Assembly (NCBI RefSeq): GCF_001584725.1
Contig: NZ_CP014606.1
Location: 930,001 to 994,000, forward strand
Length of the DNA: 64,000 nucleotides
Origin: an endosymbiont 'TC1' of Trimyema compressum
GTDB taxonomy: Bacteria > Bacillota > TC1
Reading direction: 5' to 3'
Shown: positions 45,059-53,451 of the stretch, piece after piece
How positions within the stretch are numbered: the first letter of the stretch is position 1
Layout of the letters: every line of letters starts with the position of its first letter
Translations under genes and position numbers: made by a program
Notes under the pieces: generated by a model
The model's database searches: none
What the model was told of the DNA's origin: nothing
Seen by the model: the letters and a program-made list of their open reading frames with translations, nothing else

Positions 45059-46597
45059 CTATTCCTTTTTTAAGTAATATCCTATAAATAAGTATCCTGC
45101 TATCATTACTATCAAACCATATATTACTGTTAATCCCCCAGTTTGTGAAAGCTTTTTCACTGAATCATCAGTAACTGATTTTTCCTCAAAAATATTACGT
45201 TCACCACCTTGACTACTTTCGTTACTTTCGTTACTACCTTCACTGCTATTTTTCTCCCATTGAGCATATAAAATAATATCATTACTAGGCATTGTTGAGT
45301 TTTCAAAATCCCACATTGCATCACTTCCATATTTTTGTGTATTCCAACCAACAAATGTATAACCTAGTCTAGTTGGTAACATCGGCTCTATAATTTTATC
45401 TCCTTAGTATAGGGATTGAGATAGAGGCTATGTTCCTGTATTATCATTTAAATCAAATGATACCTTATAATAGGTCACCTCAAAATTCAATTCTAGCTTT
45501 TCAGCCGTAATAGCATTGTCACTTGCATTTGAAAAAAGCCCCTCCCCTGTTGCTCTAATTTGAACAAAAACCTTTCCATTTTTATTACAACGCCATTACG
45601 AATATAATCATTAATACTAACTGCATTCTGTGAATCATCCATGTGGTTTGTTAAAATGAAATTATGTGCTGAAGATAGTGAATGGACACCACTTTTTTCA
45701 AAATTGACATATGATCAATAGAATCAAGATCTGTCTCTTTTAAAATTAACATTGGCTCTGGAATATTCTCAATCGATAAATTTTCTTGCTTATGCCCCTC
45801 AAAACTAAAATTTGTAAACCCTAAATTATTCAATGTATCTGCGTATCCCGTAGGAAGCATGTTACTAATTGCCACTAACAACTCCAAATTTGTTAGGTTT
45901 TTAAAACTAGTTGGCAAACTTGTTAATTGATTCCAACCAATATGAAGGTGTTTCAATTTATTTAATTGTCCAAAGCTTTCAGGCAAACTTGTTAATCTAT
46001 TTGCTTGGATTTGCAAGTCAATTAGATTTATCAACTGACTAAATTCATCTGGCAAAAAAGTCAATAAATTATTGCTCAAAGTAAGCCAATTTAAATTGTT
46101 CAATTGTAATAAACCTGTTGGTATTGTTTTAAATTGATTGTTTGCTAAATTTAAAGTTGATAATTTACTCCAATTCATTATACTGTTTGGTAAATCATCA
46201 AGCTTATTAGTATCTAAAGAACAAAAAGTTAAGTTACTTAAATTTCCAATACTATCTGGCAAGCTAGTAATGTTATTACTATTTAAGGCCAGTGATTTCA
46301 ACATGCTTAAATCACCAATATTACTTGGTAATTCAGCTATTTCATTATAGCCTAATCTTAGATTTTCAAGCTTATCAAAAATCTCTATCGACTTAAGTCC
46401 AACGTTGAAGCGTTCAATACAGTTGCATCCATTTCATCTGTTACTAATTTCCCAAAATAATTTGCAATAACCTGAGCAGTATGCTCATTTGAGAATTGCT
46501 CAGCAAATGTTGGATTTGCTGCCTCTATTGGTTTTGAGGATAAGCCGCAAACTGCCAATACACTAATAAACACTAACCCAATAATTTTTTTCTTCAA
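45059..46597 (-). pseudogene. Sortase-anchored leucine-rich-repeat surface protein (internalin-like), broken
   Basis: Domain order is complete. There is a signal peptide (KKKIIGLVFISVLAVCGLSSKPIEA) and about ten bacterial LRRs of the LxxLxLxxNxLxxLPxx type (45651-46380). An internalin-like linker follows, then a Flg_new repeat (LPTRLGYTFVGWNTQ, LYAQWEK), a Ser/Asn-rich wall spacer and the sorting signal LSQTGG followed by a membrane helix and KKE. LSQTG is a variant of LPxTG. Frame breaks lie near 46385, 45700, 45570 and 45440, with in-frame stops between 45400 and 45440. The start is the TTG at 46595-46597, seven bases after AAAGGAGG. It cannot be made as one secreted protein. Confidence 0.87.
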
Positions 46598-46780
46598 TTT
46601 AATGCCTCCTTTTTTTGACATATATTTATTGTAACATATTGCTTATATTTTTGCAAAAACAATAAATTTGTATTCATTATTTATTTATATTAAATCACAT
46701 ATACATCAAACTAATATCTATCAAATTTATTATCTTCAATACAGCTTTTCAACTAAACTCATATTAAATCGTCTTTTAAA

Positions 46781-47646: not shown

Positions 47647-48140
47647 TTAATCTCCTAAATCATCATTATCGCCATCAATTAAAGTAGAACCAGTTTCTTT
47701 ATAAACAGTCCATTTAGCAATAGCATTTGCCCTGTCTCCAATTCTCTCAAAATATTTACTAATAAATACATAGTCTAAATATTCTTTAATATCGTCAGGA
47801 TTAGAACTCATTTCATTTTTTAACCATCTAACCACACTTTTATAGCTATTATCAAGAATATCGTCCTCTAAATAGACTGCTTTTGCGTCCTCAATATTGC
47901 CATCACTGTAGCTACGCATTACTTTCTTTACAATATCAATTGTTAAATCAAAGAGTTCAATCAAACTTTTTCCTTTTGATCAATTAACTCGTCTCGTTTA
48001 ATAGTCTTTTTAGCAAGAGCTACATTTATATTTTCTAATGCATCTTTAGACTCCTCAAGAACCTGAATAGTTAAAGCCCCTAGCTCAACTACATCATAAT
48101 TTAACTCACTTAAAACTTGATCAAATGACTTCCTACTCAT
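47647..48140 (-). pseudogene. phoU: Phosphate signalling protein PhoU with internal deletion
   Basis: PhoU links the Pst transporter to the PhoR kinase. The N-terminal part MSRKSFDQVLSELNYDVVELGAL...DQKEK (47975-48140) is joined to IELFDLTIDIVKKVMRSYSDGN and later VFISKYFERIGDRANAIAKW. Normal PhoU has two such three-helix bundles; here the end of the first bundle, including its ERIGD-type metal motif, is missing (about 50-60 residues) and the join is out of frame near 47965. The start has a G10 tract as part of its ribosome site. Downstream it ends before the MBL relic. Confidence 0.87.
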
Positions 48141-48148
48141 TAATTTCT

Positions 48149-48158
48149 CCCCCCCCCC
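48149..48158. repeat. Homopolymer tract of ten G (minus strand) at the phoR/phoU junction
   Basis: C10 on the plus strand, G10 on the coding strand, followed by AGAAATTA and the phoU ATG, so it forms the Shine-Dalgarno region. It also lies in the last codons of phoR. No other G or C run of this length was seen in the window. Confidence 0.95.
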
Positions 48159-48175
48159 TTCATTGACTGGTAATG

Positions 48176-49853
48176 TTATTTTAATTGTAAAAGTACCCTT
48201 ACCCAGAGTGCGCTACTTACTTCAATACGTCCATTATAAAGCTCTACAATATGCTTTACAATGGATAATCCAAGTCCAGTACTGTTAGGATTTTTGCTTC
48301 TGCTTTTATCTACTTTATAGAAACGTTCAAAAACTCTTTCTTGGTCTTCCTCTGAAATACCAATTCCAGTATCTTTTACTTCAATAATAAGGTTACTCTT
48401 TTCAATATAGACATTACCAATAACAGACCCACCTTCTTCATTGTATTCAATGCTATTGGTAAATAAATTTAAAAGAAGTTGTTTCAGCCAATAGGGATGT
48501 CCAAAAAATATTGTATTTTCTTTAACAGAAACTTTTAAAGTTACTTTTTTTCTACAGCAGAAGACTTGAGAAGTGACACTAACTCAGCTACTACAACTTC
48601 TAAAATAATTGGTTCTTTAACTTGATCTTCTTTTCTTTCCTCAATATCTGAAAGATTTAAGACATCGCTAATTAAATTTTCTAGGCGAACACTTTCCACT
48701 TCAATTATATCCAAAAAACGCTGAGCAACTTCTGGGTTTGAAATTGCACCATTCTTCAAAGTTTCTATAAATCCTCTTATTGATGTCAATGGGGTTTTCA
48801 ATTCATGGCTTACATTTGCTACAAACTCTTTTCTAATATTCTCTAAAGCTCTAATTTCTGTTACATCATAAAAGAAAATAATAGTACCAATGACTTTCTT
48901 ATTTTGATTCTTAATAGGATAAAAGTTAATTTTATAAGATAAATTGTTTAAAGTTAATTCTTTAGTGCGACTCTTTGCATTAAGCCTATTCAAACTATTT
49001 AGTAGTTCCATATTATGGGTAATCACAAGAAAGTCTTCTAATGGCTCTATTTCACCTTCAATAGAAAATATTTTACGGGCTTCTTTATTAATTAAAGTAA
49101 CCTTGTTATTTCTATTAACAGCAATAAAACCGTTTTCCATAGCATCAATTGTATTTTTTAAATAACTGTTTTTTCTTCCTCTAAGGAAGCACTCCTCTTT
49201 AAAGCTTTTGTGTCTTATCTTTAAACAAAATTGCTAATGCCCTATATTCTTTAGGCAGTTTAGATACGACTAAATCTCCCACCTTATCCCCTTTATCAAC
49301 ACCTTCAATATAGCCTATTAAGCGTTTTATTGGTTTCATATTCATTTTATAAAAAAAGTTAAAGGTATTGTAATTAAAAGAGTAACAGCTAAAGCAATCC
49401 CAGTATAAATACCAATTTTAAAAAAATGGAACTTAAACTATCAATAGGAGTAGCAAAACGAATAATATAGTCACCATTTTTCTGCTGCATATAAATAATA
49501 AGTTGCATTGCTATCACTATAACGAATACTTGAACCACTGCCTGAATTTAAAGCAGATAATACTTCAGGTCTATCTTTATGGCTAAAAAGTATATCCTTA
49601 ACACTAGAATCGTAGAGGACTCTGCCATTTAAATCCATTAATGTTAAACGGCCTAAAGCACTATAGCGTACCCCTAATTCTGAATAGGAATCTCGATTAA
49701 CTAAATCAGCTCCTACTAGTTCAGTAGCAGTAAATAGTTCTTTTTCTCTTTCTTGAACATATATTTTAGTTGCAACAAAACCCATTAAGCCTACACACAC
49801 TAAAATAATTGAAAAGCTTAATATAAAAAAACTTAAAAAATCTTCCTTTTCAT
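48176..49853 (-). pseudogene. phoR: Phosphate-regulon sensor kinase PhoR, broken
   Basis: The expected order is visible: an N-terminal membrane helix and sensor (VGLMGFVATKIYVQERE, then SGSGSSIRYSDSNATYYLY), a second helix, HAMP-like remains (KRLIGYIEGVDKGDKV) and a PAS domain (MENGFIAVNRNNKVTLINKEA). The histidine box FVANVSHELKTPLTSI near 48785 follows. The HATPase has NLFTNSIEYNEEG, VKDTGIGISEEDQERVFERFY and TGLGLSIVKHIVE. Frames change near 49845, 49465, 49400, 49190, 48548 and 48205. A GKGTFTIKI end is one frame off and leads into the G10 tract. No functional kinase is possible. Confidence 0.92.
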
Positions 49854-49862
49854 TACATTCTC

Positions 49863-50554
49863 CTACCCATTATTAAATCTATAGCCAACGCCTCTAATCG
49901 TTACGATATATGCTTCAGCTTCATCACTTAATATTTTTCTTAAATTATGAATATGAACATCAACTGTTCTGCCATCTCCATAATAATCATATCCCCAAAC
50001 TTCATTAAGAAGGCTTTCCCTAGAGTAAACTTTGCCATTTCCTAAAGCTAGAAGTTTAAGGAGTTCATATTCTTTCAATGTTAATTTCAAAATCTTCCCA
50101 TCTTTTTTAATCGCTCTCTTATTCATATCAAATATAAGATTCTTAATCTAGAATAAGCTACTCTTAGGCACCTCTGTTTTAGGTGCAAATTGTCTTAAAA
50201 GTGCTCTTACTCGAGCAATCAGCTCATTAATTGAAAAAGGCTTTTTTAGATAATCATTAGCTCCTGATTCTAAGCCTACAATTGTATCAAACTCTGTAGT
50301 TTTTGCAGTAATCATTATTATAGGAATATGCTTTGTTTCTTCATCATCCCTAATAATTTTACATAGTTCTAAACCACTATAATCCCCTAACATAATATCT
50401 AAACAAAATATATGGGTTTCCTAATTTTTAAAGCATCTAAAAATGTTTTGCCATTTTCAAATGCCATAACTTCATAGCCATTAGCTTCCAAATTATAAGT
50501 CAACAGTTCCCTTATGTTCTTTTCATCATCGACAACATAAATTAATTGTTTCAC
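49863..50554 (-). pseudogene. phoB: Response regulator PhoB/PhoP, broken
   Basis: The GTG at 50552-50554 starts [21 protein letters not shown], the acidic pocket of a receiver domain. After RKP the frame slips near 50405 so that the phosphoacceptor region continues as DIMLGDYSGLELC in another frame. PIIMITAKTTEFD and YLKKPFSINELIARV follow. A second slip near 50140 separates the winged-helix domain (LTLKEYELLKLLALGNGKVYSRE, GYDYYGDGRTVDVHIHNLRKIL, TIRGVGYRF), which ends cleanly. The kinase gene follows ten bases later. Two slips abolish the protein. Confidence 0.92.
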
Positions 50555-50567
50555 TTTGTTTTCCCTT

Positions 50568-51324
50568 CTATCCAAAACGACCTGTAATATATTCCTCAGT
50601 TTTCTGCTCCTTAGGTTGCTTGAAAATAATTTCTGTTGATTATATTCTACTACTTCTCCTTGTAAAAAGAAAGCCGTTCTATCGGAGACTCGAGCCGCTT
50701 GTTGCATATTGTGGGTCACTATAATAATAGTATAGTTCTTCTTTAATTCCATAATCAAATCTTCAATTTTAAGAGTAGAAATAGGATCTAAAGTACTAGT
50801 TGGCTCATCCATTAAAAGGACCTCTGGATCAACAGCTATTGCTCTAGCCATACATAAGCGCTGCTGTTGCCCTCCTGATAAAAACAAAGCGCTTTTCTTT
50901 AAACGATCCTTTGTTTCTTTCCAAATAAAAGCTTTTTTCAATGAGCTTTCCACAATACTGTTTAGCTCACTTTTCTTTTTAATACCATGGATTCTAGGTC
51001 CATATGCAACATTGTCATAAATAGACATTTTAAAAGGATTTGGTTTTTGAAAGACCATCCCTATTTTTTCTCAATTCAACAACATTAATTTTATCACTAT
51101 AAATATTTACGCCATCAAAAAAACTTCACCTTCTATACGGCAACTATCTACCAAATCATTCATACGATCCAGTGTTTTTAAAAAAGTGGATTTACCACAT
51201 CCTGAAGGACCAATTAGAGCCATGATTTCATTTTTTTAACACCTAAATTAATATCTTTTAGGGCATGGACATCGCCATAGTATAAATTTAAGTTTTTTGT
51301 TTCTATTACACTGTTATTATACAT
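50568..51324 (-). pseudogene. pstB: Phosphate ABC transporter ATPase PstB, broken
   Basis: It starts MYNNSVIETKNLNLYYGDVHALKDINL, overlapping the pstA stop. The frame slips near 51232 before [26 protein letters not shown] (Walker A), again near 51125 and 51063. It then reads cleanly through [21 protein letters not shown], the signature [34 protein letters not shown] and [10 protein letters not shown] last slip near 50625 precedes the family's end [10 protein letters not shown]. In the current frame the C-terminus runs directly into phoB sequence, giving a spurious fusion frame to 50399. Confidence 0.93.
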
Positions 51325-52118
51325 TAGTCTTTTTCTCCTTAAAAATTAGTTGCGTTGCCAGTACCAGTATTAAAACAATTATAATTAAAACTGTAGCAGT
51401 ACCAAAGGCATCTTGAAAAGCATTTTCACCAACTGCTTCTTTAGCTAGCAAATATAAATGAACAGATAAGGTTCTTCCTGAATCAAGGAAACCACCTGGC
51501 ATTCTATCTACAGTTCCTGCTGTTAAAAACACTGCAGCTGTTTCACCAACAATTCTGCCAATTGCCAAAATAGCAGCTGTAATAATGCCTTTCATAGTTG
51601 TCGGAATTACAATACGTCCTATTGTTGAAACTTTAGTAGCACCTAAAGCATAAGAACCTTCTCTAAAACTAATGGGTACTGAACATAAAGACTCCTGAGT
51701 AACCCTAACAATAACAGGTAAAATCATAATAGCTAATGTTAAACTACCAGATAACAATGACCATTTAAAGTTTAAGTTTGTTACAAAAAACTAATCCAAA
51801 CAAACCACATAAAATAGAAGGTATACCTGCCAGGCTATCAATAGCAAAATTAATAAATGCCACTACTTTTTTCTTTTTAGCATATTCTGTTAGATAAATA
51901 GCAGTACATAATCCAATAGGTACAGCAATTAAAACTGAAAGAAAAATAATCATGAGAGTACTTACAATACTCGGCGTTAAGTCAGCAAAAAATTTAAAAT
52001 TCAAAGCACCAAAACCATTCCACAGAATATAGCCAATTATGAGAAGAAGTGCCCCAGCAGTTACAAAGACGGAAAAATAAATAAGTAATTTCAAAATGGT
52101 ATCTTTTACTTTACCCAT
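51317..52118 (-). pseudogene. pstA: Phosphate ABC transporter permease PstA, frameshifted
   Basis: An integral membrane subunit with about six helices. The N-terminal part (51765-52118) has LLIYFSVFVTAGALLLIIGYILWNG and AGIPSILCGLFGLVF. A single slip near 51778 separates it from LLSGSLTLAIMILPVIVRVTQESL, SYALGATKVSTIGRIVIPTTMKGI and GRIVGETAAVFLTAG, the EAA-type coupling loop that contacts PstB. The gene overlaps pstC upstream by eight bases and pstB downstream. One lesion only, so this subunit is the least damaged of the operon. Confidence 0.92.
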
Positions 52119-52980
52119 TTTTCTTATCTACTCTCATTTTAAATACTTGAAACAATAAGTTTAAAACAAAAATAAATATAAAGAGAATAACTCCAGTGCC
52201 GAATAAAGCGTCTTGATGTAGACCAGTGGCATAGGACATTTCAAGAGCACTATTAGCAGCTAAAGTTCTCACTGGTGATAAGATAGAATCTGGAAGCTTT
52301 GCTGCATTTCCTGAAACTAGGATAACTGCCATAGCTTCTCCTAATGCTCTACCCAACCCCCAAAATCACAGCAGATAATATACCTGAAGATGCAGCTGGA
52401 ACTAGTACTTTAAAGATAGTTGTAATTTCAGTTGCTCCTAAAGCCAAAGAAGCCTCTTTAAAGTTGCCTTCAACTTCTCTTAGGGATGTTTCTATAATGC
52501 TGATTACAGTAGGTAAAATCATAATAGATAAAACAATAATAACAGCTAGGAGGCTATTCCCTCCTGTACCAGCACCAATTGTATTATCAATTAGAGGAAT
52601 TAAAATCATCAAACCAAAAAAGCCAAAAATAATAGATGGAATACTGGCTAAAACATCAACAGCAATCCTTAAAATACGACCTAACTTTGGCGGTGCGATA
52701 TAAACCATATATACTGCAGTTAAAACACCAATAGGTCCACCAATCAGGGCTGCCCTTAATGTGTAGAAAGCAAAATTGATACAATCATAGGCAAGATACC
52801 AAATAAGCCACCTGTTGGCTTCCAATCAGTACCAAAAACAAAATTGCCAAAACCAATTTCAAAAATTGCCGGTGTTCCTCTAAAAAATATGAAAAACATA
52901 ATCAGAAACAAAGACAAAATGCAAATTGCTGCCGCTAGAATAAATAGTTTTTCAATAATTTTATGACTTACTTTATTCAT
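52111..52980 (-). pseudogene. pstC: Phosphate ABC transporter permease PstC, frameshifted
   Basis: The first piece (52756-52980) has IIEKLFILAAAICILSLFLIMFFIFF and GTDWKPTGGLFGILPMIV. After a slip near 52785 the middle piece has LRAALIGGPIGVLTAVYMVY, SIPSIIFGFFGLMILIP, MILPTVISIIETSL and ASLALGATEITTIFKVLVPAASSG. A second slip near 52356 precedes GRALGEAMAVILVSGNA (the EAM coupling loop), and the C-terminus is clean. It lies 13 bases after the truncated pstS. Two slips disable it. Confidence 0.92.
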
Positions 52981-52993
52981 AAATCCTCCTAAT

Positions 52994-53451
52994 TCAACTG
53001 ATTACAACAATAGGTTTATTATTGCCACCTACTTAAGACCAATTAGTAATTGCGCCTGAAAAAATTCCCTTTATCTGTTCCTTTGTTAAATTATTAACTA
53101 GGTTCTTTTCTTTAATGACCAGGGCAATGCCATCTAAAGCAATAATTGTTTCAGTTAAATCTTCTCCTTCACCTTCTTTTAGATAACGTGAAGACATACT
53201 AATATCCACAGTGCCATCTTCAGCTGCCTTAATCCCAGCTGAGGAACCTACACTTTGAATATCAATTTTACGCCCTTGATTTTCTGCCTCAAATGAAGCA
53301 CTTTCTTTTTCATAAAGGTGCTATAGAAGTCGAACCTACTAAAGATATTTTTAACCCTGTGCTTGCGCCTCCGCTACTGCTACAACCTACAACCTACAAC
53401 TAAAAACACTGAACTCACTATTAATACTAAACCTAAAAATATTTTTTTCAT
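52994..53451 (-). pseudogene. pstS: Phosphate-binding lipoprotein PstS, truncated and broken
   Basis: It begins MKKIFLGLVLIVSSVFLVVGC, a lipoprotein signal. At the lipobox a 7-base unit (GGTTGTA) is repeated, which shifts the frame before SSSGGASTGLKI. GSTSIAPL, a slip, then GRKIDIQSVGSSAGIKAAEDGTVDISMSSRYLKEGE follow. GIALVIKEKNLVNNLTKEQIKGIFSGAITNWS comes next, with TAA in place of Glu. The gene stops at PIVVIS where relatives continue REEGSGTR, so the second half (about 130 residues) is deleted. First gene of the pst operon; all seven genes of the locus are dead. Confidence 0.92.

Follow-up and report, generated by a model that had tools for sequence, protein, structure and literature searches.

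Is the long run of G at the junction of phoR and phoU a phase-variable switch, or is it what remains of a locus in decay? The question is raised by a window of 64,000 nucleotides from an endosymbiont 'TC1' of Trimyema compressum. A sequence-only reading of this window had noticed ten G that fall both in the last phoR codons and in the phoU ribosome site and proposed that changes in tract length could fuse PhoR to PhoU or switch the translation of phoU. We believe that the tract is very probably a slippage-expanded relic in a decaying, mismatch-repair-deficient genome and not a working on/off switch. We prefer a relic to a switch because the genes on both sides have been destroyed and the mismatch-repair genes have been lost.

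The tract and the genes on either side

The run can be read directly in the letters as ten C on the plus strand, which are ten G on the minus (coding) strand, although the length is known from one assembly and the exact count (9, 10 or 11) may be off by one. A scan for runs of eight or more G makes it the longest in the 1.62-Mb genome (two contigs). It ends 8 nt upstream of the ATG with which a PhoU-like frame begins. Locally the run exceeds chance, since by a Markov model of the window about 0.01 runs of ten G are expected there; scaled to 1.6 Mb, the model allows about 0.3-0.4, so a single G10 per genome is not in itself improbable. Plausible as one such run may be, we reject chance as the sole cause, since the ten-fold contrast with relatives presented below is not a chance result.

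The frame arithmetic of the sequence-only reading is correct. Ten G join the supposed native frame of the phoR end (GKGTFTIKITLP) to the phoU ATG, giving GKGTFTIKITLPVNEGGGEKLM-SRK in frame when recomputed; nine produce a TAA that overlaps the ATG, and eleven a TAG right after the phoU start. The switches built on this arithmetic do not survive. The GKGTFTIKITLP frame is preceded by an in-frame TAG at 48213-48215, and between this stop and the phoU ATG it contains no ATG, GTG or TTG with which translation could begin. The frame that actually arrives from phoR is closed by a TAA before the tract, and in the alignment a 2-nt difference from the relatives just upstream of that TAA puts phoR out of frame. 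The HisKA part of phoR is intact (PF00512 in 48541-49140), with a frameshift near 48555 and the frame lost near 48206. On the other side, phoU ends after 59 codons (54% identity to relatives over residues 1-57), and about 64 internal codons present in the relatives' phoU are missing between its two remnants.

A slippage-prone simple repeat does stand just before a gene here, at the phoU Shine-Dalgarno site, as it does in phase-variable loci. What such a locus also has is some tract length that yields a functional full-length product, and none of the lengths from 6 to 13 does so. The longest frame that results from any of them has 84 residues. Since these lengths never exceed 84 aa and both genes are broken, there is nothing for the tract to switch, and frame analysis over this range refutes a PhoR-PhoU fusion and leads us to reject a translation switch as well. 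The tract switches nothing now; no tract length makes phoR or phoU whole. The sequence-only reading had itself allowed that both genes were broken and that the tract might be a relic or a product of relaxed selection. The damage is confirmed, and we support that fallback. A tblastn of PhoU against plasmids and a first scan of genome contigs with the 59-aa PhoU fragment led nowhere.

Features discussed in the text (positions without a prefix are those of the window; G000:C1 is contig 1 of this genome)
Feature	Position	Strand	Remarks
phoU 3' remnant, other frame	47647..47964	-	matches residues 122-212 of a relative's PhoU; PF01895
phoU 5' remnant, 59 codons, part of PhoU domain	47961..48140	-	ATG at 48138-48140; PF01895 match
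G10 tract	48149..48158	-	sits where the phoU Shine-Dalgarno site belongs; aligned with five same-family relatives
TAA closing the upstream phoR frame ahead of the tract	48176..48178	-	frame analysis
phoR pseudogene	48206..49839	-	tblastn with a relative's PhoR; two frames; several stops in sensor region
phoP pseudogene, two frames	49875..50551	-	comparison with relatives' proteins
pstB pseudogene, three frames, stops	50571..51306	-	under the curated cut-off of TIGR00972
pstA pseudogene, two frames	51329..52112	-	comparison with relatives' proteins
pstC pseudogene, three pieces over two frames	52117..52980	-	comparison with relatives' proteins
pstS remnant	52997..53317	-	only residues 42-148 of 276 recognisable
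G8 between argH-like and murA-like genes	G000:C1 24269-24276
mutS2 homologue, at least five pieces	G000:C1 about 699850-702110
PiT transporter, intact	G000:C1 865595-866509		PF01384
mutS-mutL pseudogenes	G000:C1 1006848-1011168
G8 inside argJ	G000:C1 1397449-1397456		open frame of 409 residues

The junction in relatives and the loss of the phosphate cluster

In an alignment of the junction across five same-family species (G001-G005), the tract falls on the phoU Shine-Dalgarno site, which bears out its earlier placement in the ribosome site. The relatives have GAAGGAGG there in four cases and GAAGGGGG in G004, and the window has GAA-G10-AG. No long tract is found at the phoU site of the five family members, only a short purine-rich site with G runs of 2-5. 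The tract is not conserved at this position and is seen in one assembly alone, which speaks against the idea of a switch. The relatives have an intact phoP, phoR and phoU, with pgi next to them downstream. Judging from the junction alignment, a G-rich Shine-Dalgarno site was the probable seed of the expansion.

It is important to realize that the damage extends well beyond the two genes at the tract. All seven genes of the pst-phoPR-phoU cluster are broken, and the flanking dapB, asd, dapA and pgi each form one frame in comparison with relatives. Because the whole cluster is dead, selection at the tract would already have ceased. A second, intact Pst system can be rejected, as the genome contains no second PstB over the curated family cut-off. 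What it does contain is an intact PiT transporter, with an intact ORF of 208 aa upstream that looks by eye like a DUF47/PhoU-like partner. PiT was not found in the five same-family relatives. We think PiT probably made Pst/Pho dispensable here; a replacement of high-affinity Pst by PiT would relax selection on pst-phoPR-phoU.

Two of the relatives, G002 and G003, have pstB close behind dapA, no intact pstS, pstC or pstA at the locus, and another pstB elsewhere. Because pstB remains there without the other three, erosion of the Pst cluster seems to be under way independently in these genomes.

Mismatch repair and the excess of G runs

Both mutS and mutL score over the curated family cut-off in nine of the ten genomes of the order and are intact in all nine relatives; the exception is this genome. 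Here mutS is in five pieces over two frames with an internal deletion. Residues 1-86 and 397-564 are left of mutL, and the roughly 1.4 kb between them includes a fragment of an rve transposase, IS3-like by sequence. The miaB-like and miaA-like genes that flank these pseudogenes are full length and in one frame each. The mutS2 homologue is also in pieces, and a 480-aa gene adjoining it is broken into three. Seven 12-kb stretches from this genome are 57% covered by frames of at least 200 aa, against 91-95% for the relatives' stretches at similar genome size, and for that reason decay appears to affect the whole genome. Published work gives a 334-473-fold increase in single-nucleotide indels, most of them in homopolymers, when mutS is deleted (PMC5854121). 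The tracts of C. jejuni, an organism without functional mismatch repair, drift to G9-G10 (PMC8355987).

The genome has 15 runs of at least eight G (eleven of 8, three of 9, one of 10), against 0, 0, 0, 0 and 1 in five relatives of 1.1-1.7 Mb each (about 7.2 Mb together), a comparison that uses one genome per species, the relatives being mostly draft MAGs. The counts for runs of at least seven G are 45 here and 2, 3, 3, 5 and 6 in the relatives. Runs of at least ten A are not enriched, with 4 here and 5, 3, 7, 2 and 14 in the relatives. Binomial p values, using rounded genome sizes, are about 1e-10 for G8 and longer, 2e-19 for G7 and longer, and 0.38 for A10 and longer. An excess of long homopolymers over mismatch-repair-proficient relatives is present for G runs and absent for A runs, so a general expansion of homopolymers is rejected. 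Composition is rejected as well, since GC, GC skew and P(G|G) match those of the relatives in the stretches compared.

Loss of mismatch repair alone does not explain an excess specific to G, because runs of A are not enriched. A slippage bias of G runs, or else relaxed selection, has to play a part. At genome scale, a first-order Markov model of the window predicts about 40 runs of at least seven G, close to the 45 observed. Because the count is near this expectation, it is the relatives that appear depleted in G runs, and this genome no longer is. The contrast can thus also be read as a purging of G runs in the relatives that has ended here.

The 15 runs of eight or more G fall into two groups, those below 0.21 Mb on the plus strand and those above 0.97 Mb on the minus strand. 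This split fits G lying on the G-rich strand, and the window's own skew agrees for its part. Three of the 15 are inside frames of at least 200 aa, against a background of 57% taken from the seven 12-kb stretches of this genome (p = 0.004); these are the site before murA, the open argJ and a fragment of an LRR gene. Changing the length of these tracts by one makes no nearby broken gene long and open, and it would interrupt argJ. The G8 in argJ is a candidate hypermutable site because a one-base change would truncate the gene. The G8 before murA is a second case of a tract at a Shine-Dalgarno position; of its two neighbours, one is an argH-like gene of full length and the other is murA-like.

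Some further observations belong here. At 45059-46621 the window contains what is left of LRR and Listeria-Bacteroides (InlB-type) repeat proteins, spread over different frames, and similar broken surface genes lie near G8 tracts at G000:C1 153049 and 1256397. Comparing part of the second contig (35.8 kb) with plasmids by megablast led nowhere.

Rival readings and known systems

We give next to no chance to a live phase-variable switch, in which length changes would fuse PhoR to PhoU or tune the translation of phoU. In length, base and position, from Shine-Dalgarno site to start codon, the tract is like known contingency tracts. The arithmetic for 9, 10 and 11 G works, and the loss of mismatch repair would render the tract slippery. 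Against this, phoR has lost its frame and stops ahead of the tract, phoU is cut short and also lacks an internal segment, and 84 aa is the most that any tract length restores. The pst-pho cluster is wholly dead besides, and a different phosphate transporter is present. It could also be argued that the tract length and the many frameshifts are sequencing or assembly errors, that is, homopolymer miscalls, since there is a single assembly and several frame breaks of the genome are at or beside G tracts. We consider this very unlikely. The damage is limited to particular genes beside full-length ones (dapB-asd-dapA and pgi; miaB and miaA), and among the lesions are an insertion and large deletions, neither of which is produced by base-calling. 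The estimated completeness is 96.9%, and runs of A are not in excess.

A different objection accepts the decay and doubts the part played by mismatch repair. The tract would have formed after the death of phoU at an ordinary mutation rate, by relaxed selection alone, with the loss of mismatch repair unrelated. The dead cluster agrees with this, as does the absence of expanded A runs, and long G runs are about as frequent as composition would predict if there were no selection. However, mutS, mutL and mutS2 are all broken and the slippage rate is therefore expected to be higher, and intact genes, too, have long G tracts within or next to them, as in argJ and before murA. We regard this explanation as unlikely.

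The reading we prefer is a relic that slippage expanded while mismatch repair was deficient. In it, the phoU Shine-Dalgarno site, GAAGGAGG or GAAGGGGG in the ancestor, has decayed into the tract, which replication slippage probably lengthened to ten G. PiT, whether acquired or kept, would have made Pst/Pho dispensable, and selection at the locus would have ended before the tract expanded. The loss of mutS and mutL, and also of mutS2, would have raised the rate of slippage.

As a switch the tract has no importance; its value is in the comparison of the genome around it. A genome with broken mutS, mutL and mutS2 has about ten times the long G runs of relatives in which mutS and mutL are intact, at the same composition and with no extra runs of A. 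We believe this makes it a natural case for studying how G runs accumulate before they are recruited as phase-variable switches. It also warns against taking poly-G at a start codon as evidence of phase variation before the genes to its left and right have been checked.

Published accounts of reduced endosymbiont genomes (Blochmannia and others) describe a similar state, with many pseudogenes, low coding density, repair genes lost and homopolymers near frame breaks. In those accounts the homopolymers are usually poly(A/T), whereas the excess here is in G runs only. In this respect the genome resembles Campylobacter jejuni, whose poly-G contingency tracts are likewise runs of 8-10 G in an AT-rich background without functional MutS/MutL, and the phoU-site G10 is within the range of G9-G10 toward which C. 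jejuni tracts drift (PMC8355987). The C. jejuni tracts switch intact, mostly surface-related genes, but here 12 of the 15 long G tracts are outside long open frames and the one at phoU stands between two dead genes. Like phase-variation tracts upstream of start codons it occupies a Shine-Dalgarno position, and unlike tracts that tune expression it is followed by a frame that encodes a 59-residue PhoU fragment. A tentative and rather improbable extension of this comparison is that the lineage, which its MAG relatives link to Clostridia, has come independently into a Campylobacter-like regime, with mismatch repair lost and about 15 slippery G8-G10 tracts. Most of these would be relics, and a few (the G8 in argJ, the one before murA, those in two LRR/InlB-type surface genes) could be hypermutable and open to becoming new contingency loci. 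If that were true, the tract at phoU would show, at one moment, the raw material from which contingency loci are made.
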